48,007 nucleotides of DNA. Source: a virus. A model generated the notes under the pieces. It was not told where the DNA came from. It did not search any database and saw only the letters and a program-made list of their open reading frames with translations. The stretch lies in the IMG/VR virus record IMGVR_UViG_3300037358_000016, positions 1 through 48,007 of that record; one strand, written 5' to 3'. The position numbers were made by a program, and so were the translations under genes. Positions 1-48,007 of this stretch are shown piece after piece (position 1 is the first letter of the stretch; each line of letters opens with the position of its first letter).

Positions 1-164
1 GTCGCCGGAGATCGACCCGCCGCCGCCCACGCCGCCTGCCGATACAGATCCGCCTACGACGTAGCAGCCGCTGCAATAGGTACGGATGATAGCGGCGGCG
101 TCCAGAGACATCTGCGCCAACTGCGTTGCAGTCCCGGTCCAGTATCCCGAAGTATTGAACTCGT
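1..164. repeat. Terminal direct repeat, left copy
   Basis: These bases are identical to 47844-48007 except at position 128 (g here, a at 47971). Such end overlap is expected from assembling a circular or circularly permuted phage genome, giving about 47,843 unique bases. It lies inside a gene that reads continuously across the junction, so it is not a separate biological end. The mismatch changes one codon (GCA Ala here, GTA Val in the right copy). Confidence 0.9.
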
Positions 165-651
165 TCCACATCTCGAAGTAAACGAAATTGTTGCAACTCG
201 ATACTGGCAAAGGAGTGCCCGGCTGCGAACCTACATTGCAGACATACTGCATGAGCGACGTCACGAACTCCTTATACTGGCAGTCCGTAGTGACAACGCC
301 TGCTATGGGCGCCTGGCAGGTCGCGGACGTGTTGATATCGCTGGGCGGAACTGCCGTCCCCCCGCTCCCGTTGGCCCAGTTCGGCACGTGCGAGAAGGTG
401 TAGTGGTTCACCGCTCCTGCGCAAGCCGCAGTTTCAGTGATCCAGCTTGCAAGCCCCGACCAAGTGTACGTTCCGCGAGCCGTTTCTATGTTCGACCACT
501 CGACCGAAATGGAGCGGTTGACCGGTGGGCAGGGAGAAGGTATATATGTGGTGGCGTTGGTGGTGCTCAAGGAGAAGGAGGTCGTCTGGGCGCGAATCGG
601 CAGCGCTACGGCGAGTGCGCAGAGGAACGCTAGATAGACGAGTCTCTTCAT
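1..651 (-). CDS. Secreted clan GH-A glycoside hydrolase-like tail protein (5' part)
   Basis: N-terminal 217 codons of a 570-residue protein whose remainder is at 46782-48007; the frames join exactly through the terminal repeat. The ATG at 651 overlaps the stop of the fibre gene (ATGA). Residues 1-22 form a typical Sec signal peptide (MKRLVYLAFLC..., probable cleavage after IRA). The fold resembles clan GH-A: WNE with candidate acid/base Glu164 here, then HPY near residue 244 and GSEGG with candidate nucleophile Glu314 in the right-hand part. A polysaccharide-degrading role at the cell surface is inferred from these motifs and the fibre-gene context. GH5- or GH39-like families are possible; I cannot choose. 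A signal peptide on a phage tail-region enzyme is unusual. Confidence 0.7.
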   Translation of the reverse strand, partial: MKRLVYLAFLCALAVALPIRAQTTSFSLSTTNATTYIPSPCPPVNRSISVEWSNIETARGTYTWSGLASWITETAACAGAVNHYTFSHVPNWANGSGGTAVPPSDINTSATCQAPIAGVVTTDCQYKEFVTSLMQYVCNVGSQPGTPLPVSSCNNFVYFEMWNEFNTSGYWTGTATQLAQMSLDAAAIIRTYCSGCYVVGGSVSAGGVGGGGSISGD

Positions 652-3600
652 TGCGCGCTCACATTGAACGTGATGGCCGAGTACGTGATCGGCAAAGTGG
701 TGATGTTGCAAACCTTCCATGTCGCCATGTTCGCCGATGACGGCCAAATGGAGAAGGTCATGCCCGCGGTCGCGCCCCAGCCCGTCAAACTGGTCGGATC
801 CGTTCTGTACCCGCCACCGACTTTCATAGCCGTCGTCAGGCCAGCCATGGCGACGTTCGTGCCTGACGAGCAAGTGTTGGCTACCATGGTCCCTCCGGCG
901 ACCGCCACCGTCGTATCCGCTACGAACGGAAACGATGTCGGCATGTAGTAATACTGGCCGTTGATCAGAGTCGATACCGGGACCTGACCTGCCGCGGTCG
1001 GCTGCGGCTGCGGCAGGGTCTCCGGCGTAACCACCACATTTTTGTAAGTCAGAGTCGACGTGAATCCGCTGGCCCCCAGCGAGAGATTCCCGAAGGATGT
1101 ACACGCGGCGAGATTGGCGGTAATGTAGACGGTCGTGAACGTCGTGCCGACTGTCGGCGTGGTCGTGGAGCCGGTAATAGCCCCGCCGTCGCAATTGATA
1201 TAGAAGGTAGGCGTCGCGGATGCGGAACTCTTGACAGTCAGCGCCCAAGTGGTCGGCACCGAAGCCAGATACCGGGGCGAGACAGGATTGCCTGAATTAA
1301 CCCGCCACTGAAATCCTGGGCCAAGCAGGAAGTATGTTGCCGAACCCGGATTGGGCAGGTCGATAGAAAAGTTAGTCGGCGTGAAACTCGTGTCGTAGTA
1401 GCACCCTGCGGGCGGAACGACGGCAGATGGAGGGCTATTGTAGAACGTATAGGTGCAGGGTGACAGAGTCGCAGGCGACGGCGCGTTGGGTGCGATGCCG
1501 ATAAAGGCGACATCCTCCGTCGTCACCCCGCCTCCCCACGCCGGGACGATGTTGATCGTAATCCAATCCCCGAGTGTGGTCCCGGAAAGATCGATGAAAA
1601 GCGTCTGGGCGGAAAAGTTGGTTGTGAAGCGAAGCGTACTACTGCCGATTGTCGAACCGCCAGCGGTGATATCCGCTACCGTCACTCCGGTCAGGCACGC
1701 GGCGTTGCAACGCCCCCCAATGGCGATCGTTATGCCACTCTGCGGAATCCGGTCGCCCACGATCAGCAATTTGTTCAGCGGCCCTGTTCCCTGAAACGAC
1801 GGCCCAAATCCGAACCCTGAAGCGTAGTTCGTGCTGTCGGAGTGAAAGTAGGTCTGGATCGGGTTGTAGACATCCCCAGGGTCCAGAGTGCAGCCGGGAG
1901 TGGTGAACGACCCGTTACTAAAAGCGAAGTTGAAATCCTTGCACGACATTAGCAAGTCTGAGCTTCCGGCGAACGGTGCGGTAGGATTGCCGCTCAGCAG
2001 AAACCCGGCGTCCAGTTTCCCTACCGGCTCAACCGGTCGGTCCAGGTATACCCGCCGAATCAAGTTGCTGTTATTGGCGCTTCCAGAAGTGTCTACGCTG
2101 TTATCTAGCCCGTTGTCGGTGAGGTTGGCGGCTCCGAGCCCAGTGTGGGTGAAGACGTTCTGAGCGCCCATGCCGAAACTTGTTCCCGGCGCGCTGATTA
2201 CGAGGTTGTTGATCGTGGCGTTTACCGTGCTCTCGCTCGCTAGCCAGTTTGCGTAGTTGGTGCCGCCGCATTGACCCAGCGCACCGCCCTGGATCACGTT
2301 GCCATTGCCGGAAAACCTCGAATGCTCCCCCGCATTGAGGCTGAAGCACTCGTCGTAATAACGGTTTACGGTCATGCTGGGCACCGCTCCGGCTCCTGAT
2401 CCCAGAGCTACCTCGAACTGAAACAGGCCCAGCGCAAAAGGCTGCTCCCCGGAGTAAATGTTGATGCCTTTGCCGGTCCGGTGCGACCCGTTGTACATGG
2501 TCATTGGGATCGCGTTGAATTTCAGGTTGATATCGTCGTAGAAATTGGTGTCCGGAGTCCACGCGAAGTAGGAGGTGTTGTTTGAGGCCGGCGGCGCCTC
2601 GATCAAACCACCCCACAATCCCTGCGCAGCGACATGCTCAAAACTGATATTGTTCGACGCAGCTTGCATGAACAGCCCGCATACGTAGTTAGCCTTCGGC
2701 GAGCCGTTCGCCGTGAATTGCAGGTTGCGGAAGACATACCCATTGAAATTCGAGGCCATCGCCGCGCCGCTGCTGGCAGGGATAGCGATGCCTGCATTGC
2801 CGCAGTACCAAGGCGCGTCCATCGAAGTTCCCGCAATGGTGCCCGATGCCGTGCTCGTGGTGGTCGACGCGTTAGCAGCTAGCACGATATGTGAGTTGTC
2901 CGTCACCGATGCTACGGTCGTGGTGAGCGTTCCTCCACTCGTGCCCGCGCCGACAACCGTCGCAATCTGCCCGACCAGAAACGACGAGGGCACCCCGTTC
3001 AGGAACTCGGCGCAGGGAACGGTGAGGATCGGTGAGCCGTTGGTCATGGACCCATCGCAAGTGCCGGTGACGGCGGGGCCGAAAGCCATGCCGCCCGGCG
3101 CAGGAGGACCGCCGCTGGAGGCCGGGAGCGCCGTGGTGCCTCCTGCGGTTCCGTAGATCCGGTTGGGGAAGGTGTTGTTTCCGCTTACTGCCGTCGCCGC
3201 TGCATTCACCGTCCCGTCCGACTCGATAGTCATATCGTGGACGTAGGCCCCGAAGAGGAGGGTCGCGGCGGAGTCGGGAGTAGCGAAGACATCTTGGCCT
3301 GGTTCGCCTAGAATTGTCGTTTGTGTAACGCCCGCGCCAAAGAAATTCTGCCCCATCCATGTAATCGTTCCCGTCTTGCAGATCCCAGCCGGAAATTGAA
3401 TCGAGGCCCCGTTCACATACAAGCCGCCTTGCGCCGGGGGCATCGCGTCGTTGAAAGCCGCCTGGATCGCCGCCTGGTCGTTGGTCACTCCATCGCAGCT
3501 GGCGTTGTATGGAGACTCGAGGACGCTGATTATGCGGTTTACGCTGGCGGTGCCGGTTTGATCTGGGAACGTCAAATTCAAGTATTGCCCTAGCGGAGTG

Positions 3601-4079
3601 TAGTTTACCGCTGCCGCGCCATTCCCAACGATATTCCCAATATGCAGTTGATCCACTCTAAAGGTATCCTGACGCCCAGTCGTAAGCTGATCTAGACCAT
3701 TCTCGAAATCCGCGTAAAGGGCTGGCATGTACGGAGTGAAATGCGTTAGCTGTGTCGGCTCCGTCGCTCTTGCGATGACCAGCGTGTCTCCAGAAGGGCA
3801 TGGACTAAGCAGCGCGATACTGCCACCGTTTGCATAAGAATTATTTACCGGAGTGCCTGCCCATTGATTCGACGCAAGAACTGTCATCACCCCCGGCAAC
3901 GATCCAGCCGGAATGTCGATGACCAGCAAGGCCCCCACGTCATCCACTGGAAATGTGAACGGGAACGGGCCTGGGGAGTTTGTGCAGGCAAACGTAGCAG
4001 TGCTGGCTGTGCCGGTTACGGTCGCATGAGCAAGCACGGCAAGCATCCATAACGCCACGGCACATAAGAGTTTATGCAT
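648..4079 (-). CDS. Tail fibre/spike with T7 gp17-like N-terminus and beta-helix, carrying a signal peptide
   Basis: 1,143 residues; start supported by the ribosome-binding site AAGGAGAGGCG directly before ATG 4079. Residues 1-19 (MHKLLCAVALWMLAVLAHA) look like a cleavable Sec signal. Residues about 20-145 resemble the virion-attachment domain of T7-type fibres (FPFTFPVDD near the start, then LTHFTPYMPALY and a FENGLDQLT helix). From about residue 180 a pectate-lyase-3-like start (SCDGVTNDQAAIQAAF) leads into a long Gly/Asn/Ser/Thr-rich region typical of a parallel beta-helix. The role is receptor binding and possibly glycan depolymerisation. The export signal before a virion-attachment domain is hard to reconcile with cytoplasmic assembly. 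Confidence 0.75.
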   Translation of the reverse strand: MHKLLCAVALWMLAVLAHATVTGTASTATFACTNSPGPFPFTFPVDDVGALLVIDIPAGSLPGVMTVLASNQWAGTPVNNSYANGGSIALLSPCPSGDTLVIARATEPTQLTHFTPYMPALYADFENGLDQLTTGRQDTFRVDQLHIGNIVGNGAAAVNYTPLGQYLNLTFPDQTGTASVNRIISVLESPYNASCDGVTNDQAAIQAAFNDAMPPAQGGLYVNGASIQFPAGICKTGTITWMGQNFFGAGVTQTTILGEPGQDVFATPDSAATLLFGAYVHDMTIESDGTVNAAATAVSGNNTFPNRIYGTAGGTTALPASSGGPPAPGGMAFGPAVTGTCDGSMTNGSPILTVPCAEFLNGVPSSFLVGQIATVVGAGTSGGTLTTTVASVTDNSHIVLAANASTTTSTASGTIAGTSMDAPWYCGNAGIAIPASSGAAMASNFNGYVFRNLQFTANGSPKANYVCGLFMQAASNNISFEHVAAQGLWGGLIEAPPASNNTSYFAWTPDTNFYDDINLKFNAIPMTMYNGSHRTGKGINIYSGEQPFALGLFQFEVALGSGAGAVPSMTVNRYYDECFSLNAGEHSRFSGNGNVIQGGALGQCGGTNYANWLASESTVNATINNLVISAPGTSFGMGAQNVFTHTGLGAANLTDNGLDNSVDTSGSANNSNLIRRVYLDRPVEPVGKLDAGFLLSGNPTAPFAGSSDLLMSCKDFNFAFSNGSFTTPGCTLDPGDVYNPIQTYFHSDSTNYASGFGFGPSFQGTGPLNKLLIVGDRIPQSGITIAIGGRCNAACLTGVTVADITAGGSTIGSSTLRFTTNFSAQTLFIDLSGTTLGDWITINIVPAWGGGVTTEDVAFIGIAPNAPSPATLSPCTYTFYNSPPSAVVPPAGCYYDTSFTPTNFSIDLPNPGSATYFLLGPGFQWRVNSGNPVSPRYLASVPTTWALTVKSSASATPTFYINCDGGAITGSTTTPTVGTTFTTVYITANLAACTSFGNLSLGASGFTSTLTYKNVVVTPETLPQPQPTAAGQVPVSTLINGQYYYMPTSFPFVADTTVAVAGGTMVANTCSSGTNVAMAGLTTAMKVGGGYRTDPTSLTGWGATAGMTFSIWPSSANMATWKVCNITTLPITYSAITFNVSAQ

Positions 4080-12062: not shown

Positions 12063-15000
12063 TCAACCCTCCTCGGCGACAGAAAGACGTGGAACTACCG
12101 ACCGCAGCGTGAGCGGGAATGGTTCCCCGTGGACTATCAAGATAGGATCTGAATCCGTCCAATCCCCGTCGAGTTCGCGTGTGATGTTGCCAGTAAAAAG
12201 GGTTGGAGGATTGCCAATCGCGTTCTGGCCGTAATTGATCGCATGAAGGTGATTCGAGTCAGTTCCAACCAAACCGCCGATGGATTCGTATAAAGAAAGC
12301 GTGACGCGCGAGAACTTTTGCTTCTTGCCTTTGGACGTGGCCTGCTGGTTGCCGATTACCGGATTCATCGGCTGGACCGTGGTGGTGAACGGAAGTCCTA
12401 TGGTCACCTGATTGGCATACGAGGGAAACACAACCGTATCGGCGGTGACTGGACCGCTGAAGATCACCTGCTCATCACCGACCGCGATCACGGTCTTGCC
12501 AAGCAAGTAACTCATGCCCGTAACCTGGTTAGTGACCTGCTCAACCGTCCCTCCGCCCCCATATACGCCCCACGCGCTTGAATCAATGCCGTCAAGCTGG
12601 AACGTGTTGGCGCTCGTTCCCACCACCGTCCACGCCGTAAGAGGATTTGTGTTGGCCTGCGTCGCCCCAAGAACTTCCGCAATCGCAATCGACATCCCGT
12701 TCGTAAGTGAATGGCCGGGAGCCGTAACGACGCATGGATTGGAATTCGAGATTCCGGTGATTGAAAACGGCCCCACTCCTTGAAACTGTAGACCGGCATG
12801 GACGAAAAAGGCATTCGATAATTGGTGAAATAAGTCCTGCGGAGCGAAGTACTCGATGTACCGCTGCTGGACTCCGTTGATGATTCTTAAAACTGAAATC
12901 CACACCTGATCTTCCGCGTTGTCTTCGGATACGCAGGCCACCGATTCAATCACGCCATCGGTTACCACACGGAACCATGCAAACACTTCCTCTTCGCGGT
13001 TGTAAGTTAATCCGAGCAGTTGCCCGTCGGCCCGCACAGCCCAGAAGATCGGATAAGGCTCACTTTGGAACGAAGTCTGGACGATCCCTGAAAGAGCTTC
13101 TGTCGCTCCAATCGTGATATAGCTGTTCAATCGAGTGAGATCGGGGCCTTCCCACTGATTCGTTACAAAGTTGAACACAATCAGGCGAACCACTCTTGCC
13201 GACCGAGTGACCCAAATTACATCGGAATTGACCAGTTGAGGAGCTATGTTCCCAGCGCCGATGGTAGTTTGGAGAGCCGCTGTAACGTCTGTTTGTGAAA
13301 GCGACTGGCCATCCGTGGTGTACATCGCCCACACGCCGCCGGAAGTGCCCAGCATCAAGGCAGTAGGTGTGCCGATCATCCACCTCATCTGATTAACCTG
13401 CTGACTCACTAAAGTGAACTGAATCGCGTAATCATCCTCGTTCGGGTCGCAGATAAAATCAGAGTAGTCATCTTGCACACTGCCATTGACCTGCGTTGGC
13501 GTGGCGAGTGCACCGGCCACGCAAAACCTTTCTTGATAGAGCGTGCAGCACGCAGGATAATTCCCGGCCCCGACAAACAGGTTAGGAATCGCCACCGCAA
13601 ACCCGCCGCCGGTGTAGGGCAGAAAGTTGGTCGAGTCGATGGCGGCGCTGCCGATAACCGACGTGACTTGCGCCGTCGCTCCGAATCCGGAGCCTGAGAT
13701 TTCTACTGTATCGCCGACATTATATCCAGTGCCAGCGTCTACCACCCCAAGATAAATGACTCTCCAGAGCGTGACATCGTACTCCTGCACAGGCTCCGTG
13801 GCGACGGAAATAGTCAGGCCAGTGCCACTGCCGCCGCTTGCCATATAAATTCCAGAGGGGTTTTCAGGAAATTCGCCGCCACTCCAACCACCCAAACTCC
13901 CGACTGGCCCTCCGCCTTCGGCTCCTAGCGGAAGAAGGTTGAACGTCCATGCCCCCGCGCTTCCACCCATGCCTGACACGATGAACTGTCCTTCGTTCAA
14001 CTCCACCATCCCGGAGCATTCGTTGATGTAAATCCGGTCTCCATCCTCGAACGGTTCGGCGGCGCTGGCCACCGTGACAACGGCAGGGTTCGCCGCTGTG
14101 ATGTTAGAGATTGACTGCCCTAACGCGCTGTATCCGGTCTTCACCACATCGGTTGTGCCGTAGAGGGCGAGAGGCTGGTAAATCCATGACGTGTCTGAAT
14201 ACCGACTTAGTGAAGCGAGCGGATAAGACGAATGCGCGATGTAGAATACGTCGGCACTTTGGGTAGAGACATCGAGCGCAAACAGGTCGGCCTCGGCGTA
14301 TGGCGTTGCAATGACAACCGGCTGGTTGGGCGCAATCAGATTCCAATTTGAAAGGGAGACGGCTGGGAAGTTGTCAGTATTGCTTGCGGTCAGATTTTCG
14401 TAAATTGAGCCTGAACCTGCCATCGCCTGCGAGACAGTGACAGAGGTAATCGGAGGAGTTGAGGAAGTTGGGTCCCAATACGCCTGCCAGTTTACGAGCG
14501 GGATGTAGTTGTGCAGGAAAGAATTCAGGTTTATTAGCGCCAGAAGAGCAGCCTGAATAGCCGCCGATGAGTTTTTGGATGACGTTGTATTGGCCAAAAG
14601 TATCTGAATTCCCTGATTTGGCACTACTCCTGTTTTGGTCACCGCGAGATTGTCTGAGGAATTCACTCCTAAAGTAATCACCGCATTGCTGAGTGATCCT
14701 TCGCTGTACGGAGCCTGGATGGTCAGATAGGGCGTTGCTGGCACCAGTGTGGTAGAGAGCCTTGTATAAGCCCCGAGAAGAACCTGCATCCCCACAGCAT
14801 AGGAATTCGTCGGAGCCCAGTCATTCAACCCGGTCGAAGCTCCGACGACCAACCCGCCGTCAATCCAGATGCGCACGCCCATTGCAAAGAATTCAAGGAT
14901 CGCTGTCTGGTTGGTAGAAAACTCGAAAGGAACCAGCCTGGATTTGCCAGTGCTTGCCGTTCCCAGAGGGCCGCCGTTAGCCGCGATCCCGGCGAAGATC

Positions 15001-15152
15001 GTCCCCGGCATCTTCTTCGCCCCGCCCTCGACCAACGGAATGGCGTTCTCAAGCGTCTTGCAGGCGGCAGCATACTTGGACAGGTCCGACCTTGATTCTA
15101 TTAGTTCCGACACTTCGCCGGTATTGAAATTGTTGATGAGAACATTGCTCAT
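12063..15152 (-). CDS. Tail tubular protein B / nozzle-like protein
   Basis: 1,029 residues. The N-terminus has the hallmark of this family: N.NTGEVS..IESRSDL.KYAAACKTLENAIPLVEGG..KMPGT, as in T7 gp12 and related stabilisation proteins of P22-like phages. The rest is beta-rich and low in charge, fitting the propeller-type nozzle at the distal end of a short tail. The start overlaps the stop of the tubular A gene (ATGA). It is longer than T7 gp12 (about 790 residues). Confidence 0.8.
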   Translation of the reverse strand: MSNVLINNFNTGEVSELIESRSDLSKYAAACKTLENAIPLVEGGAKKMPGTIFAGIAANGGPLGTASTGKSRLVPFEFSTNQTAILEFFAMGVRIWIDGGLVVGASTGLNDWAPTNSYAVGMQVLLGAYTRLSTTLVPATPYLTIQAPYSEGSLSNAVITLGVNSSDNLAVTKTGVVPNQGIQILLANTTSSKNSSAAIQAALLALINLNSFLHNYIPLVNWQAYWDPTSSTPPITSVTVSQAMAGSGSIYENLTASNTDNFPAVSLSNWNLIAPNQPVVIATPYAEADLFALDVSTQSADVFYIAHSSYPLASLSRYSDTSWIYQPLALYGTTDVVKTGYSALGQSISNITAANPAVVTVASAAEPFEDGDRIYINECSGMVELNEGQFIVSGMGGSAGAWTFNLLPLGAEGGGPVGSLGGWSGGEFPENPSGIYMASGGSGTGLTISVATEPVQEYDVTLWRVIYLGVVDAGTGYNVGDTVEISGSGFGATAQVTSVIGSAAIDSTNFLPYTGGGFAVAIPNLFVGAGNYPACCTLYQERFCVAGALATPTQVNGSVQDDYSDFICDPNEDDYAIQFTLVSQQVNQMRWMIGTPTALMLGTSGGVWAMYTTDGQSLSQTDVTAALQTTIGAGNIAPQLVNSDVIWVTRSARVVRLIVFNFVTNQWEGPDLTRLNSYITIGATEALSGIVQTSFQSEPYPIFWAVRADGQLLGLTYNREEEVFAWFRVVTDGVIESVACVSEDNAEDQVWISVLRIINGVQQRYIEYFAPQDLFHQLSNAFFVHAGLQFQGVGPFSITGISNSNPCVVTAPGHSLTNGMSIAIAEVLGATQANTNPLTAWTVVGTSANTFQLDGIDSSAWGVYGGGGTVEQVTNQVTGMSYLLGKTVIAVGDEQVIFSGPVTADTVVFPSYANQVTIGLPFTTTVQPMNPVIGNQQATSKGKKQKFSRVTLSLYESIGGLVGTDSNHLHAINYGQNAIGNPPTLFTGNITRELDGDWTDSDPILIVHGEPFPLTLRSVVPRLSVAEEG

Positions 15153-41203: not shown

Positions 41204-41935
41204 TTAGTTGATCGCCGCAAGGTCTGCGGTCAGTTGGTCCAGATTGAGGCCGTTCGGCGCTCCCCACGTTGCAATCCACTCCGGCGAGAGCAAAGCATGG
41301 GCCTCTTGCACGTACTTGTTCCAGAAGGCCACAGTCATAGTGTAGACCTGGCCCCAGGAGATGAACTTGAAGATTCCTGCCGCGTACCCCACCACGAACA
41401 CACAATGGCCACCATCGATGCCGCCGTTATCCGCCACCACGTCCCACGGCACGGCTGGATTCGGAGGGCCTTCCATGATGTAGTTCGGCACCTGCATCCC
41501 GATGTACACTCCGCCGAAGGTCGCAATGGCTTGCTTCACTTCCTGGATGTTCGCCACGTTCGGGTCGGCAAATCCAAGCAGGACATGACCGGCCAAGCCG
41601 TTCGCCTTCCAGTCAGTCAGCACGTCGAGTTCCACGCCGCCCTGATCGGTAGACGGATCGGCAGGGTTGTAGCCGCACCACGCCTCGTAAGCCGATTGAA
41701 TGTCGCTGTCGGCCACGGTCAGTTGTTTCCCTGCGCTGCTGAGGCTCCAAATCTGTACCGCATGGCCGCATCCGGCAATTGTGCAGTCACCCAGGGAGTC
41801 ATTCAGCATTTCGCCCCAATCGGTGACGCCATCGGTCCAGTCTTTCGTCGCCGGGGGAGTATCGAGCGGGGAGAGGTAGTCCTTTAGCAGCAGCGTGCGA
41901 GAGTCTGTTTTGAACGCTTTTACGCCTAGCTTCAT
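41204..41935 (-). CDS. Papain-like cysteine peptidase
   Basis: 243 residues; the start overlaps the previous stop (ATGA). The catalytic Cys51 lies in NDSLGDCTIAGCGHA and His177 in GGIDGGHCVFVVGYA. ISWGQ near 193-197 takes the place of the NSWG of papain-like enzymes, so the third residue differs. It has no signal peptide. In the lysis cassette it could act as a peptidoglycan endopeptidase or process virion proteins. Confidence 0.6.
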   Translation of the reverse strand: MKLGVKAFKTDSRTLLLKDYLSPLDTPPATKDWTDGVTDWGEMLNDSLGDCTIAGCGHAVQIWSLSSAGKQLTVADSDIQSAYEAWCGYNPADPSTDQGGVELDVLTDWKANGLAGHVLLGFADPNVANIQEVKQAIATFGGVYIGMQVPNYIMEGPPNPAVPWDVVADNGGIDGGHCVFVVGYAAGIFKFISWGQVYTMTVAFWNKYVQEAHALLSPEWIATWGAPNGLNLDQLTADLAAIN

Positions 41936-42217: not shown

Positions 42218-42331
42218 TCACCACAGCGGCGGCTTCCACATCTTACCGCGCTGAATCCTGCATACCACCCACACGGCAGGCGCGATAATAGCCAAGAATA
42301 CGCCCACGCCGCAGACGATCGCTTCCGTCAC
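42218..42331 (-). CDS. Tiny membrane protein, 37 residues
   Basis: GTG 42331 overlaps the stop of the preceding gene (GTGA). It reads VTEAIVCGVGVFLAIIAPAV followed by WVVCRIQRGKMWKPPLW, i.e. one membrane helix and a basic C-terminus. A lysis accessory (small holin or spanin-like) role is possible. Confidence 0.5.
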   Translation of the reverse strand: MTEAIVCGVGVFLAIIAPAVWVVCRIQRGKMWKPPLW

Positions 42332-42591
42332 TTGTCCGCATCCTTCTTGTCCGCATCCTTCTTGTCCGCATCCTTCTTGTCCGCATCCTTCTTGTCCGCC
42401 CGGTCTCTCGCGTCATTCTTTTCTTCCAATTTAGCCTCTGCGCGGTCGGCACGGCTGCGCCATTCAAACAGCCCGTCCGTCTTCACTTGCAGCCCTTTAA
42501 TGCCCCAGCTATTCCAGATAGCTGCAAGGGCGCTTAAGCCCCCAACGATATAAGCGCCGATCTGTTTCCAATTCCAGCCTGGAAGGCTCAC
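42328..42591 (-). CDS. Membrane-anchored charged protein with KKDAD repeats
   Basis: 87 residues from GTG 42591, which overlaps the stop of the preceding frame (GTGA). One N-terminal membrane helix (WKQIGAYIVGGLSALAAIWN), then a charged coiled coil (RSRADRAEAKLEEKNDARDRA) ending in four to five KKDAD repeats. The layout resembles an i-spanin (inner-membrane anchored coiled coil) or holin-like protein. Confidence 0.55.
   Translation of the reverse strand: MSLPGWNWKQIGAYIVGGLSALAAIWNSWGIKGLQVKTDGLFEWRSRADRAEAKLEEKNDARDRADKKDADKKDADKKDADKKDADK
42331..42390. repeat. Four 15-bp tandem repeats
   Basis: The unit cttgtccgcatcctt is present four times without change, with a partial fifth (42391-42400). 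It encodes KKDAD on the minus strand. Perfect identity suggests recent slippage expansion. Confidence 0.9.
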
Positions 42592-42746: not shown

Positions 42747-43364
42747 TTATTTGCCGCCTCCGCTGGCCAGCCACACCTGGTACCAATTGGTGCGCGTCTC
42801 CCGCTGCGCCGCGCCGAGCGTGATTTTGCCCGCGCACACCTGCTTCAGCAGCCAGGTGTCCGCCGTCCCCTTCTGCTTGGCGCCGGGAAGCGGCAGATAG
42901 GGCTGCGGCCACAGATTGGCCAGCTCGTCGCTGCCGCCCAGCGCCAGCGGAATCAGGTGATCGATCTCAAATAGTGACGCAGTGCACTGCGCCGGAGCCA
43001 GACCGTAGCGGCTGCACACCTGTTGCCTGCTGGCTTCGGCGGTCGACCGGGCGATGTCGGCCTGGAACGCGCCGGCGGACCCAGCAGCGGTGGCCGCGCA
43101 CAGCGTCTTGGCGGTTGCGCCGGTGGCCGCGCCGGGCGTGAGCGCGAGGTTGTTCAGGATGGCCAGGCCGTCGGACCGGAACAGCGGGTCGATGATGAAC
43201 GTGGCGTGCGTGGGCGCGGACGGGCCCGCGGCGTGCGCGCGCGCCGAAAAATCGAAGCGGTGCGGAATCTGGGCCGGCGTGCAGCCCGTGAAGAGCAGCG
43301 TGGCCAGGATGCCAAAGGCTATCCGCACATGCCGGATTTCGATGGATGCGAGAGCGCGATTCAT
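42747..43364 (-). CDS. Lipoprotein with HNH-nuclease-like C-terminus
   Basis: 205 residues from ATG 43364 (GAGGAG upstream; ATG 43376 is an alternative). The N-terminal RHVRIAFGILATLLFTGC is a lipoprotein signal with Cys31 as the likely lipidated residue. The C-terminal half has TASLFEIDHLIPLALGGSDELANLWPQ with an HxxP...N pattern, followed by LKQVCAGKITLGAAQRE, the layout of secreted HNH-like domains. It would be placed in the periplasm. Roles could be DNA degradation at lysis, superinfection exclusion or a structural use of the fold. Confidence 0.6.
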   Translation of the reverse strand: MNRALASIEIRHVRIAFGILATLLFTGCTPAQIPHRFDFSARAHAAGPSAPTHATFIIDPLFRSDGLAILNNLALTPGAATGATAKTLCAATAAGSAGAFQADIARSTAEASRQQVCSRYGLAPAQCTASLFEIDHLIPLALGGSDELANLWPQPYLPLPGAKQKGTADTWLLKQVCAGKITLGAAQRETRTNWYQVWLASGGGK

Positions 43365-43372
43365 AGTGCTCC

Positions 43373-43630
43373 TCATGGTACGAGCGTACAGAAACTTCCG
43401 AGCTTGATAACCACTGCGTCCGAGGCGTTCCCTGTGTAAGCCAAGACCTTCAGGGCTCCAGCCGTTGACCCCGTGGTGAGCATTGCGTCAAGTGTGAATG
43501 GATAAGCTGTTCCAGTTGCGCTCGGAGTTCCGAAGACAACAGAGGTGGCTGTGGTTGATGTGATATTGGGCAAAACGCCGGAGGCAAGTCCGCCCGTTAG
43601 GGAGGTGTAGACGGTTCCGGTGGCGCTCAT
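43373..43630 (-). CDS. Small beta-rich fibre-associated protein
   Basis: 85 residues, Thr/Ser/Gly-rich (SLTGGLASGVLPNITSTTAT, then LKVLAYTGNASDAVVIKLGS), no signal peptide. It lies between fibre and lipoprotein genes. The composition is like a fibre tip or chaperone; no family recognised. There is no clear ribosome-binding site before ATG 43630. Confidence 0.5.
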   Translation of the reverse strand: MSATGTVYTSLTGGLASGVLPNITSTTATSVVFGTPSATGTAYPFTLDAMLTTGSTAGALKVLAYTGNASDAVVIKLGSFCTLVP

Positions 43631-43666
43631 AAGCGCCGCGCCGGTTGTCGCCGATTGGAGCGACAG

Positions 43667-46279
43667 TCAGAACCCACCCTCTGACACTGCTTGGGTATAA
43701 GACCCAGAGCAGTGCAGGAAGTAGGTTGTGCTTGGATTAATGGTCCCGAGAGAAAATACCACACTTCCCGGAGTGGTGGTGGTTATGCCTGACGAGTCGC
43801 TGCCGTAAGAGCCATTGGCCACTCCTACAGTGCCAGTCTGCTCCACATCCAGATTCGTGCCGTCATAGCAGACATTGAGAGGTATATTCGCTGGGATTAC
43901 ATGCGCGGTCAGTGCAGTGATAAAGCCGGTCGGACTGGGAATTGCCACGCTCTTTGCGCCGAGAGAATTGACGTTTATCGTAAGAGCGGTGCCGCTGTTG
44001 GTAGTCGTCGTGGTGTAAGCAAAGCAGGAGCCTGTCGTCACCGTGAATGTGGCGGGCGTCGTCGTGCAGGACTGCGCAGTTCCCGAGCCAGATGTGTCGG
44101 GGCACAGGTTGACTGTCTGGGCGGATACGGCACCCGTGGCCTGCGCGGTTCCCGTGTGGAGTGTATCTACCACCGTGATGTTGCTTTTATATCCCGAGAG
44201 CTTGCCGAGCGAATCCGTAAATATGGAGCAGGGCGGCGATCCGCAGCCGGGAGTTACGTTGTCCTGAATAATGGCGGTCGCGGGGTAAGCCCAAACGGAA
44301 GACCCGCCATAGGCCATCACGTTGTCGATGCTGACCGCCGTGGGGAAAATGCTGCTTATATAAAGAATGGTCGCTGTCGATCCTGACGCAGAAATCGGGT
44401 AGGCATCAATCAGCCCGAAGGTCAGAGATTCGCAGCCCGCATCGTCGATAAATGGATTGCTGGAGCTTGCGGCGGTATCCTCCATGTAGAGAAGGCCACT
44501 GAAAACGATGACTGAATTCCCTCCGCCTGTCGTGTCGTGACAATAGATATCGGGAGTAGTTACGGTCACCCCATGGTTGTTGACCGTGGTGTCATGGAAG
44601 TCAATGGCAGTGACTTGTGCGCTTGTTCCGGCTTCGATGTCCAAGCCGCCTGAACCCCATTCATTGTCAACTTGATTTCTTGCGGCTTCTGTGTGGCAGC
44701 AGAGTATACCTCCGCCTGCGGTTTGTATCTGTAGGGTATAGCTATTGCTTGGATTACTCGAAGCATTGTCCGCCCACTGGTTATCCGCCCATACCGAGCC
44801 ATCAAACCCATTGGTGATGATGCCGATGTGACCGCTGGCCATGGTGCTGCCGTGGTTGTTTTTGAAGAATACTCCGTTCATGTAGTAATAGCCTTGGCCC
44901 GCCGTTCCGGGCAACTGGCCGTACATGGCGTAGATATTGTTTGCGCTGGAGTAGTTCACGAAAGCACAACCGACAGCCTGCACGCCGACACACTCGATGT
45001 GAGCATAGGACTGATGGAATACCGCATAACCTGTAGCGGTGATTGTTTCGGAGCCAACCGTCTGTGATGCGCTGACGGTCCACGAGGTTCCACTGCCAGC
45101 CGTGAGCGTTGTACCCGCTGTTACACCGCTTCCGCTGAGCACATTGCCGATGGCAAGGGGCGTACCTGTAACCGAGCCGCTCACCGTCAAGGTGGTTCCT
45201 GAGATTGAACCCGTAAAGGTCGCGGGGGTCAGAGTGACGTGATTGAACAAGCCCGTTGGCAGCAACCAAGTGACTGGATGCGTGCCGTCACCCGCGTTAA
45301 TCTGAGCAGTCTGCGTCGTGCCGGCTGGCTCGCCGGTTGAATCGCAGATGCCGGACGTATTGCCGTTTGTGCTTGCAGCGGCGTCGGCGAGGCAGGCATT
45401 GGCGCGGGCGTCTAAGGTTGCGCCGGGGTAGTTGTTCGAGTAGCTGATGCCGTTGACAACTTTTGCTGCCGGATTATAAGAGAACTGCGCATAAGTCAAC
45501 GATGAACCGGACGAACCAATGGAGGTAACTTGCGAAGTCAACAGCCAGCTTGTTGTTGTGTTTACCGTACCTGACTGTACCGGGATCGCGCCTGTATTGT
45601 TCACATCTGAAGGCGTGTCGTAATCCTGCGCACGAGTAAAAATCGGGCTTACACCCAGTGAACCTGGCGTAGTCAGGGTGTAGACGCCATTCTGTGAAGC
45701 CGTTGACTGATTCTTGAAGAGTACCCGCTGGCCCGATGTCCCTACTGAGATCCCGTCGAGTGTGAAGGCTCCTGTGGCCGTCACGGTGAAGGTGTCGCCC
45801 ATGCCACCACCTACCTGCACATAGGTTCCGACCACATTTGCGGTCGAAGCGGCCAGAACGGCCACAGCGGGGTTTATGCCTGCCACCGCGTTAGCGACGG
45901 CCAAGTCTGTGTAGGCAGTTGTGGACGGACTCAGGCTATTATTATTTTGCGATTTCGTGGTCGCAGTGGTCCCGCTAGGAAGAATTAAAGATGGGTCCAG
46001 TGAACAAACCGGATTTGTTGGACTCGTCGTACAGTCAATCTCATTTGCGGTGCCGGAGACGCTGGTTACGGTGCCTGATCCTGTGCCGGTTCCCAAGGCC
46101 TGGCAGGCGTAGCCCACCGTCGGCCCGTACAGCGTCCAGGGCGTCGTGGTAGTGAGCGCGTAAAGTGCATCCGTTCCGCAAAAGGCCGGCGCGGTGGAAG
46201 TCAGACTGACCACCGGCTGCGCCACCTGCGCCAAGGCCGGCAACCCTAAGAGAAACAGAACCCATGCAAGATATTTCAC
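43667..46279 (-). CDS. Second tail fibre-like protein with signal peptide
   Basis: 870 residues from GTG 46279, which has AAGGAG four bases upstream (GTG 46297 is open but lacks one). Residues 1-18 (start codon plus [17 protein letters not shown]) are a typical Sec signal. Around residues 165-270 lies the common fibre module [49 protein letters not shown] and [13 protein letters not shown]. The centre and C-terminus are beta-rich, with a beta-helix-like region. It may bind receptors or exopolysaccharide. It lacks a recognisable T7-like attachment domain. Confidence 0.65.
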
Positions 46280-46293
46280 AGTTCTCCTTACCG

Positions 46294-46785
46294 TCACTTC
46301 ACAGTTGCCGTAAGACTTCTCGGCTCACGAAATGCCGCTGGCTGATCGTCCGTGACCGTCGGCTCTGCTTGCGCCACCGGGGATGCACTCGGAGGCCCCG
46401 GAGCCGTTGGCGGCGCTGCAATGGTCAACGGTAGGCCGCCATTTGAAGGCTGGGACGCAACGCTGGTCATCCCGCTCTGCACGGTTTGCGCAACGTAGCA
46501 GACATACCCCGAAGGCGGAGTCGAGTCCGTGAAGACCAGTCCGGGTGCCGGAGCCGTCTGATTAATAGGTACGTATGCGGTTCCTGTTGTCGCCGGGCAG
46601 GCTGTCGTTGCGGTTGCCACAGTTGCGCGGCTGTAGATGTAGGTGCAGGCCGGGGCTGTGCTCGTGCAGCTTGTGGATGCCGTGACCGTCAAAGCGACGG
46701 TTGGGGATGAAGAGGCCGGAACCTGTGCGTGGCACCCCGCCATCGTCGCGAAAGTCAGAATCGACGATAAAAGTATGTGTTTCAC
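46294..46785 (-). CDS. Small secreted lipoprotein-like fibre accessory
   Basis: 163 residues from GTG 46785, overlapping the GH gene stop (GTGA) and preceded by GGAGGAG. The N-terminus [17 protein letters not shown] ends in a lipobox-like MAGC (Cys18). The rest is Thr/Ala/Ser/Pro-rich and beta-like, with [28 protein letters not shown], a pattern seen in fibronectin/Ig-like modules, and a Pro-rich tail. Probably surface-exposed; the function is unknown. Confidence 0.6.
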
Positions 46786-48007
46786 GATGCTCCTCCGGTG
46801 TGAATTACCACCTTTGCTCCTACTAGAAGCGGTGGATTGGGTGCGTTTACGGTCGGGTTTGTCGTCAACAGAACTGGCTGCTGGTTGAGCGTGACGCCGC
46901 CCCCGGTCGAGGATGTAGTTCCGGCGAGATTCTGCACGGTTGAGAATGACGTGCTCTTGGTATAGGAAGTCAGCCAGCCGTCGAAAAAAGTGATCTGCGC
47001 CGCGTTTCCGCCGACATCGACGGACAGCGCCCAAACGTTCCCGCCACTGACGGCAGTGCTCGTCCACGTTCCCGTAAGGGTCGATTCGTTCACCCATGTC
47101 TGCGTCTGGGTGAAGGCAGTATGCCAGCCGGGGGACGAGTTGTTCGGGCATTCCCAGTACACGCCCCATGTGCAGGTGTTGTCGTAACCCGCGTAGAGCA
47201 GTTGGACGGCGGTGCCCTGCGCCCACAGCGTCATCATCCACTGCGAGATGTAGGCGGCGCGGAGGAAGGTCGTGTTGGTAAGATCGTTCGCCTGGCCGGT
47301 GTCCGACGTAGATGAGACATTGGCGTGTGTAAAGTTGAATTCGTATTGCGACGAAGAAAGGCCGGTGCTGAGGACCGTGACCGTAACCTCATTGAAATAG
47401 GTCGCTGTCGTCCATCCGTCCAAGATAATTGTCTCGCCCGACGTAAAGTTATTCGTTCCGGTGACGGTCGCCACGTTCGACGTAATGGAGAAGGAGGTTG
47501 CGGCGTAGGACGTGTTTCCGCCCGCCACTGCGCGCATAACGCCGAAGCCGCCCTCGGATCCGATGACGGGAGTACCGGCAGCCCACGCAGAGATAGCCGC
47601 GTTCTGCAGCACCGCCGTCCCTTTGACTTGGCTGATCTCTTGATAGACTGCGACATAGCAAGAGCTATTCGGTGTGTTGCCGCTGGTGCAGACGGAATTC
47701 GAATTGCTGACCAGTGTGGTAGGGAACGGCGCGGGGAATACATTGTCCCGCGACGGATATGGATGGATGCTCACATAATCCGGCTTGACGAATCCGCTCA
47801 GGCCGCCCCACGCGGTGAGGTAGGCCAGCAGCGCTACGTCATAGTCGCCGGAGATCGACCCGCCGCCGCCCACGCCGCCTGCCGATACAGATCCGCCTAC
47901 GACGTAGCAGCCGCTGCAATAGGTACGGATGATAGCGGCGGCGTCCAGAGACATCTGCGCCAACTGCGTTACAGTCCCGGTCCAGTATCCCGAAGTATTG
48001 AACTCGT
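46782..48007 (-). CDS. Secreted clan GH-A glycoside hydrolase-like tail protein (3' part)
   Basis: Continuation of the gene at 1-651; the protein is cut at the window edge, not by a mutation. This part contains HPYPSRD (His about residue 244 of the joined protein) and PVIGSEGGFGVM with the candidate nucleophile Glu314. Then follows a C-terminal beta-rich domain (NFTSGETIILDGWTTATYFNEVTVTVL-like) of the type that binds carbohydrate or trimerises. It ends with an overlap (GTGA) into the lipoprotein gene. Confidence 0.7.
   Translation of the reverse strand, partial: EFNTSGYWTGTVTQLAQMSLDAAAIIRTYCSGCYVVGGSVSAGGVGGGGSISGDYDVALLAYLTAWGGLSGFVKPDYVSIHPYPSRDNVFPAPFPTTLVSNSNSVCTSGNTPNSSCYVAVYQEISQVKGTAVLQNAAISAWAAGTPVIGSEGGFGVMRAVAGGNTSYAATSFSITSNVATVTGTNNFTSGETIILDGWTTATYFNEVTVTVLSTGLSSSQYEFNFTHANVSSTSDTGQANDLTNTTFLRAAYISQWMMTLWAQGTAVQLLYAGYDNTCTWGVYWECPNNSSPGWHTAFTQTQTWVNESTLTGTWTSTAVSGGNVWALSVDVGGNAAQITFFDGWLTSYTKSTSFSTVQNLAGTTSSTGGGVTLNQQPVLLTTNPTVNAPNPPLLVGAKVVIHTGGAS
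47844..48007. repeat. Terminal direct repeat, right copy
   Basis: Matches 1-164 with a single difference at 47971 (a, versus g at 128). See the left copy for interpretation. Confidence 0.9.

Follow-up and report, generated by a model that had tools for sequence, protein, structure and literature searches.

In tailed phages, folding and attachment of the tail fibres are generally placed in the cytoplasm, where the virions themselves are formed, and the usual N-terminal processing of ordinary fibres is the removal of Met, which leaves a Thr-Val/Ile end. Late attachment of tailspikes in vitro is known for other phages. The fibres of T7-type podoviruses (T7 gp17 with its N-terminal domain PF03906, and the fibres of pelagiphages, Carin 1 and LME-1) share with those described here an N-terminal anchoring domain, a gene position after the internal virion proteins and an enzymatic or binding body downstream. 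However, T7-type fibres start at the domain (mostly with Met-Thr-Val/Ile) and have neither a signal nor a Cys pair, whereas the fibres of the present phage group carry a predicted Sec signal and contain 1-4% Cys.

Virion proteins with cleavable signals that mature outside the cytoplasm are known from filamentous phages (pIII, pVIII). These phages are tailless and are assembled at the membrane without lysing the cell, in contrast to the present group, which is tailed, with presumably cytoplasmic heads and with lysis. T5 Llp and similar small phage lipoproteins of superinfection exclusion are made in the infected cell; of the proteins described below, a 163-aa and an HNH-motif protein recall them by their lipobox-like signals only. 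No report of Sec signals on tailed-phage fibres was found in the open-access literature, and we know of no tailed phage in which Sec-exported fibres are joined to the virion at lysis. The parts described here are of known kinds; what is new, as far as can be told, is their combination in a tailed phage whose fibres are predicted to be exported.

Genome type and gene order

The analysed DNA, called the window below, is a stretch of 48,007 nucleotides (IMG/VR record IMGVR_UViG_3300037358_000016, positions 1 to 48,007). Its ends share 164 bp with one mismatch at position 128 (1-164 is repeated at 47844-48007); the contig is therefore a phage genome that is closed or permuted, with a fibre locus spanning the join. 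In IMG/VR the record is classed as linear, despite this overlap. The phage core is of the short-tailed, epsilon15/pelagiphage/T7-like type, with a portal (phrog_332), a head protein, two tail tubular proteins and internal virion proteins. Among the minus-strand late genes the ATP-grasp gene comes last, followed by the fibre locus and then by the lysis genes. The six genes of the locus lie as the first-pass annotation had described them, all on the minus strand (Table 1); the GH-A-like gene is read across the join (651..1, then 47843..46782) and encodes 570 aa in all.

Table 1. Predicted features of the fibre locus in the window
Feature	Position	Strand	Remarks
PurD-fold ATP-grasp enzyme gene, 430 aa	4092..5384	-	marker directly upstream of the cassette; no export signal
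Fibre 1, 1143 aa	648..4079	-	Sec signal, virion-anchoring N-domain with Cys pair, weak pectate-lyase-like signal in the body
Fibre 1 signal peptide MHKLLCAVALWMLAVLAHA	4023..4079	-	AxA site directly before TVTG; Shine-Dalgarno AAGGAG 5 nt upstream
Fibre 1 mature N-terminal virion-anchoring domain	3505..4022	-	172-aa aligned stretch
GH-A-like protein, N-terminal part	1..651	-	start overlaps fibre 1 stop
GH-A-like protein signal peptide MKRLVYLAFLCALAVALPIRA, cut before Q	651-589	-	
GH-A-like protein, C-terminal part	46782..47843	-	read across the join
Small lipoprotein-like protein, 163 aa, GTG start	46294..46785	-	lipobox-like TMAGC, alternative signal peptidase I site CHA/Q (cut at the stroke), 5 Cys; Shine-Dalgarno GGAGGA
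Fibre 2 / tailspike-like, 870 aa, GTG start at 46279	43667..46279	-	signal peptide; Shine-Dalgarno AAGGAG; 2.2% Cys; phrog_17264, E=3.4e-9
85-aa protein without signal	43373..43630	-	
HNH-motif protein, 205 aa, start at 43364	42747..43364	-	lipobox LLFTGC; Shine-Dalgarno GAGGAG; 2.4% Cys

Three genes outside the locus deserve mention. The tail nozzle protein (phrog_376, 12063-15152) varies strongly at about residues 105-400 among the relatives (863-1170 aa), and this stretch is an additional variable surface part. An 87-aa protein (42328-42591) whose N-terminus is hydrophobic and which contains KKDAD in tandem repeat is possibly a lysis protein. The gene at 41204-41935 encodes a 243-aa protein matching phrog_19005 (unknown function, E=1e-32) and adjoins the holin-like and endolysin genes.

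The ATP-grasp gene was used as a landmark, by which 24 loci were recovered from viral contigs. The AlphaFold model of its product (pLDDT 83) finds its best Foldseek matches in GAR synthetases over the whole length (E=2.7e-18), and a PurD sequence model gives E=0.0053, far below cut-off; the predicted fold is that of GAR synthetase (PurD). The gene adjoins fibre genes in signal-bearing and signal-less phages alike and is therefore not tied to export itself. In L074-L076 a different 449-aa gene (MKFIFYTEFGEIADLAIHL...) is found near its place.

Export signals of the locus

Signals were scored by a home-made n/h/c-region rule, not by SignalP or LipoP, and were judged by comparison. Signals had been proposed for five of the locus genes, and by this rule 5/6 genes do have a canonical N-terminal signal of the Sec or lipoprotein type, the 85-residue gene being the one without, as had also been noted. 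Features of Sec export and signal peptidase I cleavage (a basic tip, a hydrophobic core and an AxA-type site) are present in fibre 1, the GH-A-like protein, fibre 2 and 25 fibre relatives. In the 163-aa protein the lipobox-like site competes with an AxA-type site; the HNH protein has a lipobox that conforms to the pattern. The Cys content is unusually high (1.8 to 3.1%) in each of the five proteins with a signal. The claim that ribosome-binding sites are placed for all five starts holds for four of them, which have the Shine-Dalgarno sequences given in Table 1, and fails for the GH-A-like gene, which has no clear one. Its translation is probably coupled to that of fibre 1, because its start overlaps the fibre 1 stop (ATGA).

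The background rate came from the same phage group, in which genes lying upstream of the locus were scored by identical rules for signal and ribosome-binding site; at this rate of 3/81, the chance of five signal-bearing genes among six is ~4e-7. Conservation of the signals in related phage contigs, a check suggested by the first-pass annotation, was found in the IMG/VR relatives: a signal with a ribosome-binding site was scored in 35/50 genes after the marker vs 3/81 before it (Fisher p=1e-16), the sampled fibres being related, the counts not independent and many contigs incomplete at the fibre genes. The signals are therefore a trait that this locus shows throughout the phage group, rather than a peculiarity of a single genome. 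The median Cys content is 1.83% downstream vs 0.0% upstream of the landmark (Mann-Whitney p=4e-14). One of the three upstream signal-positive genes is itself a fibre. Short signal-bearing genes upstream of the landmark are seen beside tail genes at L044:1071-1589 and L047:923-1651.

N-terminal domain of fibre 1

Fibre 1 had been labelled a T7-like fibre, and this label gains support through its relatives and through structure. Neither the whole of fibre 1 nor the ATP-grasp gene gave a tblastn match among GenBank phages; isolates are reached only by the N-domain of the relatives. The N-domain family consists of 28 distinct environmental copies, 27 from phages and one from a bacterial MAG. When 21 members were aligned and compared with PHROGs, all of them matched phrog_1640 (tail protein; E=0.0011 for the window member) and 19/21 matched phrog_5510 (tail fiber). 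PF03906 was matched by 6/21 N-domains with a best E of only 0.0038, and a PF03906 search of the window alone gave no match. The family profile matches PDB entry 8ck1 (tailspike or tail-fibre chain) and related entries with E=1.2e-9. With a fibre model of medium quality (pLDDT 73; query-normalised TM-scores to the matches about 0.34-0.45), the top 19 Foldseek matches (8ck1 at E=3e-5, 9efk, 7boz and 7ey9 among them) come almost entirely from tail-fibre domains within podovirus tail complexes and include T7 gp17. The hhalign comparison of the family with the single T7 gp17 sequence was not significant and the model is a medium one, so the link is to the fold family.

The fibre 1 gene comes after the internal virion protein genes, as in the isolates, and its N-domain is predicted from these sequence and model comparisons to be a virion-anchoring domain. 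The body matches PF12708 with E=0.025 only, and the mature protein contains 1.78% Cys. No other fibre candidate was seen in the window genome.

Signal peptide and cysteine pair

Isolates with the same domain include pelagiphages, Alteromonas phage ZP6, Vibrio phages J2 and K300, BcepC6B and Klebsiella phages. All 12 isolate fibres start at the domain, without a signal and without the Cys pair, and most begin with MTV or MTI. The premise of the first-pass annotation that fibres normally lack export signals held in every control, namely in these 12 fibres and in a published survey, where phage DGR target proteins had no signal peptides and this was taken as support for phage origin (PMC6199706). 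The signal is absent also from further provirus-like homologues in other genomes.

In place of Met, fibre 1 has a predicted 19-aa signal whose AxA site falls exactly before Thr-Val; cleavage would therefore restore the usual fibre N-terminus. The signals of the relatives diverge in sequence and retain the Lys/Arg tip, the short hydrophobic core and the AxA-type site. The signal is carried by 25/27 phage anchors, and the N-domain of every signal-bearing phage copy (25/25) contains the Cys pair, so that the two occur together; in L042 and L098 the second domain Cys is slightly displaced and the pair is still present. The remaining two anchors, L038 and L055, have no signal and begin at the mature position (MTVIAQ and MSVVTL) with a good ribosome-binding site. 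They contain no Cys in 357 and 355 aa. In the tree they nest inside the signal-bearing clade; signal and cysteines were therefore lost together, which speaks in favour of genuine export and of folding under oxidising conditions. In both phages the 358-aa signal-less anchor is followed by a fibre-like gene with a signal. Here the anchor would stay in the cytoplasm, and its export is therefore not obligatory.

The copy from the Deltaproteobacteria MAG is an exception, having a signal and 2.3% Cys overall and no Cys pair in the N-domain. Disulphide formation normally requires the periplasm, so the simplest reading is that the N-domains fold there; the pattern would be hard to explain otherwise.

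Other proteins of the cassette

Pfam and PHROG scans of single cassette proteins were mostly empty, and no full-length homologues of the GH-A-like, small, fibre 2, 85-aa and HNH proteins were found in the fetched relative loci, with the sole exception of the GH-A-like protein, which recurs in one near-identical contig. The GH-A label of the first-pass annotation, drawn from motifs only, was not confirmed: the protein has no Pfam match, and GH39 in the PDB is reached with E=0.15 only, around the WNE motif. It contains no fibre domain. The HNH protein begins with MNRALASIEIRHVRIAFGILATLLFTGC and contains the motif FEIDHLIPLALGG, with the Pfam HNH match below cut-off (E=0.0077); an exported nuclease of the infected cell is a possible, putative function of this lipobox protein. 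A role at the cell surface is possible for the GH-A-like, small lipoprotein-like and HNH proteins. In fibre 2, residues 353-422 form a module resembling segments that are inserted in the L012/L013 tail tubular protein and segments in an L015 gene, as if a mobile domain were spreading among structural genes.

Host and cultured phages

Tunturi 1 and 2 (PP887698, PP885685) are podoviruses of the acidobacterium Tunturiibacter psychrotolerans (PMC11924767). In their fibre cassette, which is annotated as tail fiber, tail spike or pectin lyase, virion structural protein and hypothetical, 5/6 genes have signals, and the Cys content is 1.3 to 2.7% vs <0.9% in the core. Thus both Tunturi 1/2 and the window group possess a cassette of signal-bearing, Cys-rich fibre proteins; the two differ in that Tunturi 1/2 have other portal and tail genes and fibres without this N-domain. 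Unrelated Tunturi 3, from the same host strain, has signals in 0/16 genes, and the fibre region of Tunturi 4 has none. A host-wide bias as the source of the signals was rejected, since Tunturi 3 grows on the host of Tunturi 1/2 and has none. The main text of the Tunturi paper (PMC11924767) makes no mention of signal peptides or mass spectrometry, and the signal-bearing cassette has apparently been unremarked so far.

A protein of the Tunturi cassette has a relative in the cassette of the window phage group (E=2e-33), and the Tunturi endolysins are related to the endolysins of two relatives; an acidobacterial host is therefore hinted for the window group, and these soil phages probably infect Acidobacteriota. 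When genome contigs were searched for a host, only two loci came up: the Deltaproteobacteria MAG locus, whose copy is distant, and a contig of 3.2 kb that had been binned with a peat archaeon, probably in error. The MAG locus (L056:11319-13883) has a signal-bearing fibre with a distant ATP-grasp neighbour, and the fibre/ATP-grasp arrangement may reach beyond Acidobacteriota phages.

Proposed assembly route and alternatives

With a probability of about 0.6, the cassette would encode exported host-interaction proteins, the first of them being the virion's own tail fibre, joined to the virion at lysis. The sequence comparisons give good support to export of the fibre and to its oxidative folding; its attachment at lysis is the inferred part. 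We infer a place on the virion for the exported fibre because it has the anchoring domain, because its gene lies where isolates have theirs and because the genome shows no second fibre. As tailed-phage virions form in the cytoplasm, exported fibres would have to meet them when the inner membrane opens. The fibres would be translated late and sent through the host Sec translocon, and signal peptidase I would cut them to a Thr-Val N-terminus. Trimerisation and disulphide formation would take place in the periplasm, where the fibres would remain while heads and tails are assembled on the cytoplasmic side. Once the inner membrane is opened by the holin, both pools would mix and the N-domain of the fibre would dock on the tail. 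The other exported proteins (tailspike-like, GH-A-like and lipoprotein-like) could be distal fibre parts or cell-surface actors, and the arrangement in L038 and L055 points to a fibre of two parts that would be joined at this same moment. The wider claim, that tailed phages widespread in soil, probably on Acidobacteriota, build their virions in two compartments joined only at lysis, with heads and tail tubes made in the cytoplasm and fibres passing through Sec, becoming disulphide-bonded and folding in the periplasm, stands in our view at about an even chance.

It could be argued that none of the exported fibres and glycosidase-like proteins belongs to the virion and that they are free depolymerases or a coat of the infected cell serving receptor masking or superinfection exclusion. 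The real look of the signals, the lipobox-like sites in the small and HNH proteins and the absence of a fibre domain from the GH-A-like protein agree with this. However, fibre 1 keeps the virion-anchoring domain and sits where isolates encode the virion fibre, and neither the window nor the relatives, except L038 and L055, contain a substitute signal-less fibre, which makes this explanation rather unlikely. Just these two phages, with a signal-less anchor and then a signal-bearing fibre-like gene, would fit two-part fibres in which the anchor remains virion-bound and export and addition concern the distal proteins only, export of the anchor in most phages being secondary; but 25/27 anchors of the group carry the signal themselves, and we consider this improbable.

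If the hydrophobic N-termini were uncleaved membrane or tail-docking segments, or chance hydrophobic starts, it would be difficult to understand why nearly all copies have the Lys/Arg tip, short core and AxA-type site despite their divergence, why the start of the mature domain coincides with the site and why the cysteines track the signal; we attach very little weight to this possibility. Host-derived genes for secreted proteins, carried as cargo without a virion role, would account for the signal peptides and high Cys content, which are typical of host secreted proteins, and for the several cassette proteins without a phage family match. Yet the position and the tail-fibre N-domain are conserved across 25+ phages, and the relatives of the domain are phage fibres, so that such an origin seems highly improbable. 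Among the readings offered by the first-pass annotation, assembly of part of the tail after export, its last and least developed option, fits best, because the anchor domain is predicted to be exported, cleavage would restore the N-terminus, the cysteines track the signal and no other candidate fibre was seen; nothing in the analyses speaks directly for the other readings. Depolymerase secretion, receptor masking and superinfection exclusion may still apply to the GH-A-like and the two lipoprotein-like proteins.

If true, assembly with export and joining at lysis would be a new route, in which fibres are exported and oxidised, and it would explain how disulphide-rich fibres can be made. It would change the prediction and expression of fibres, and annotation rules that read a signal peptide as the mark of a bacterial gene would be unsafe. 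The cultured Tunturi 1 and 2 make the idea of exported fibres testable now.
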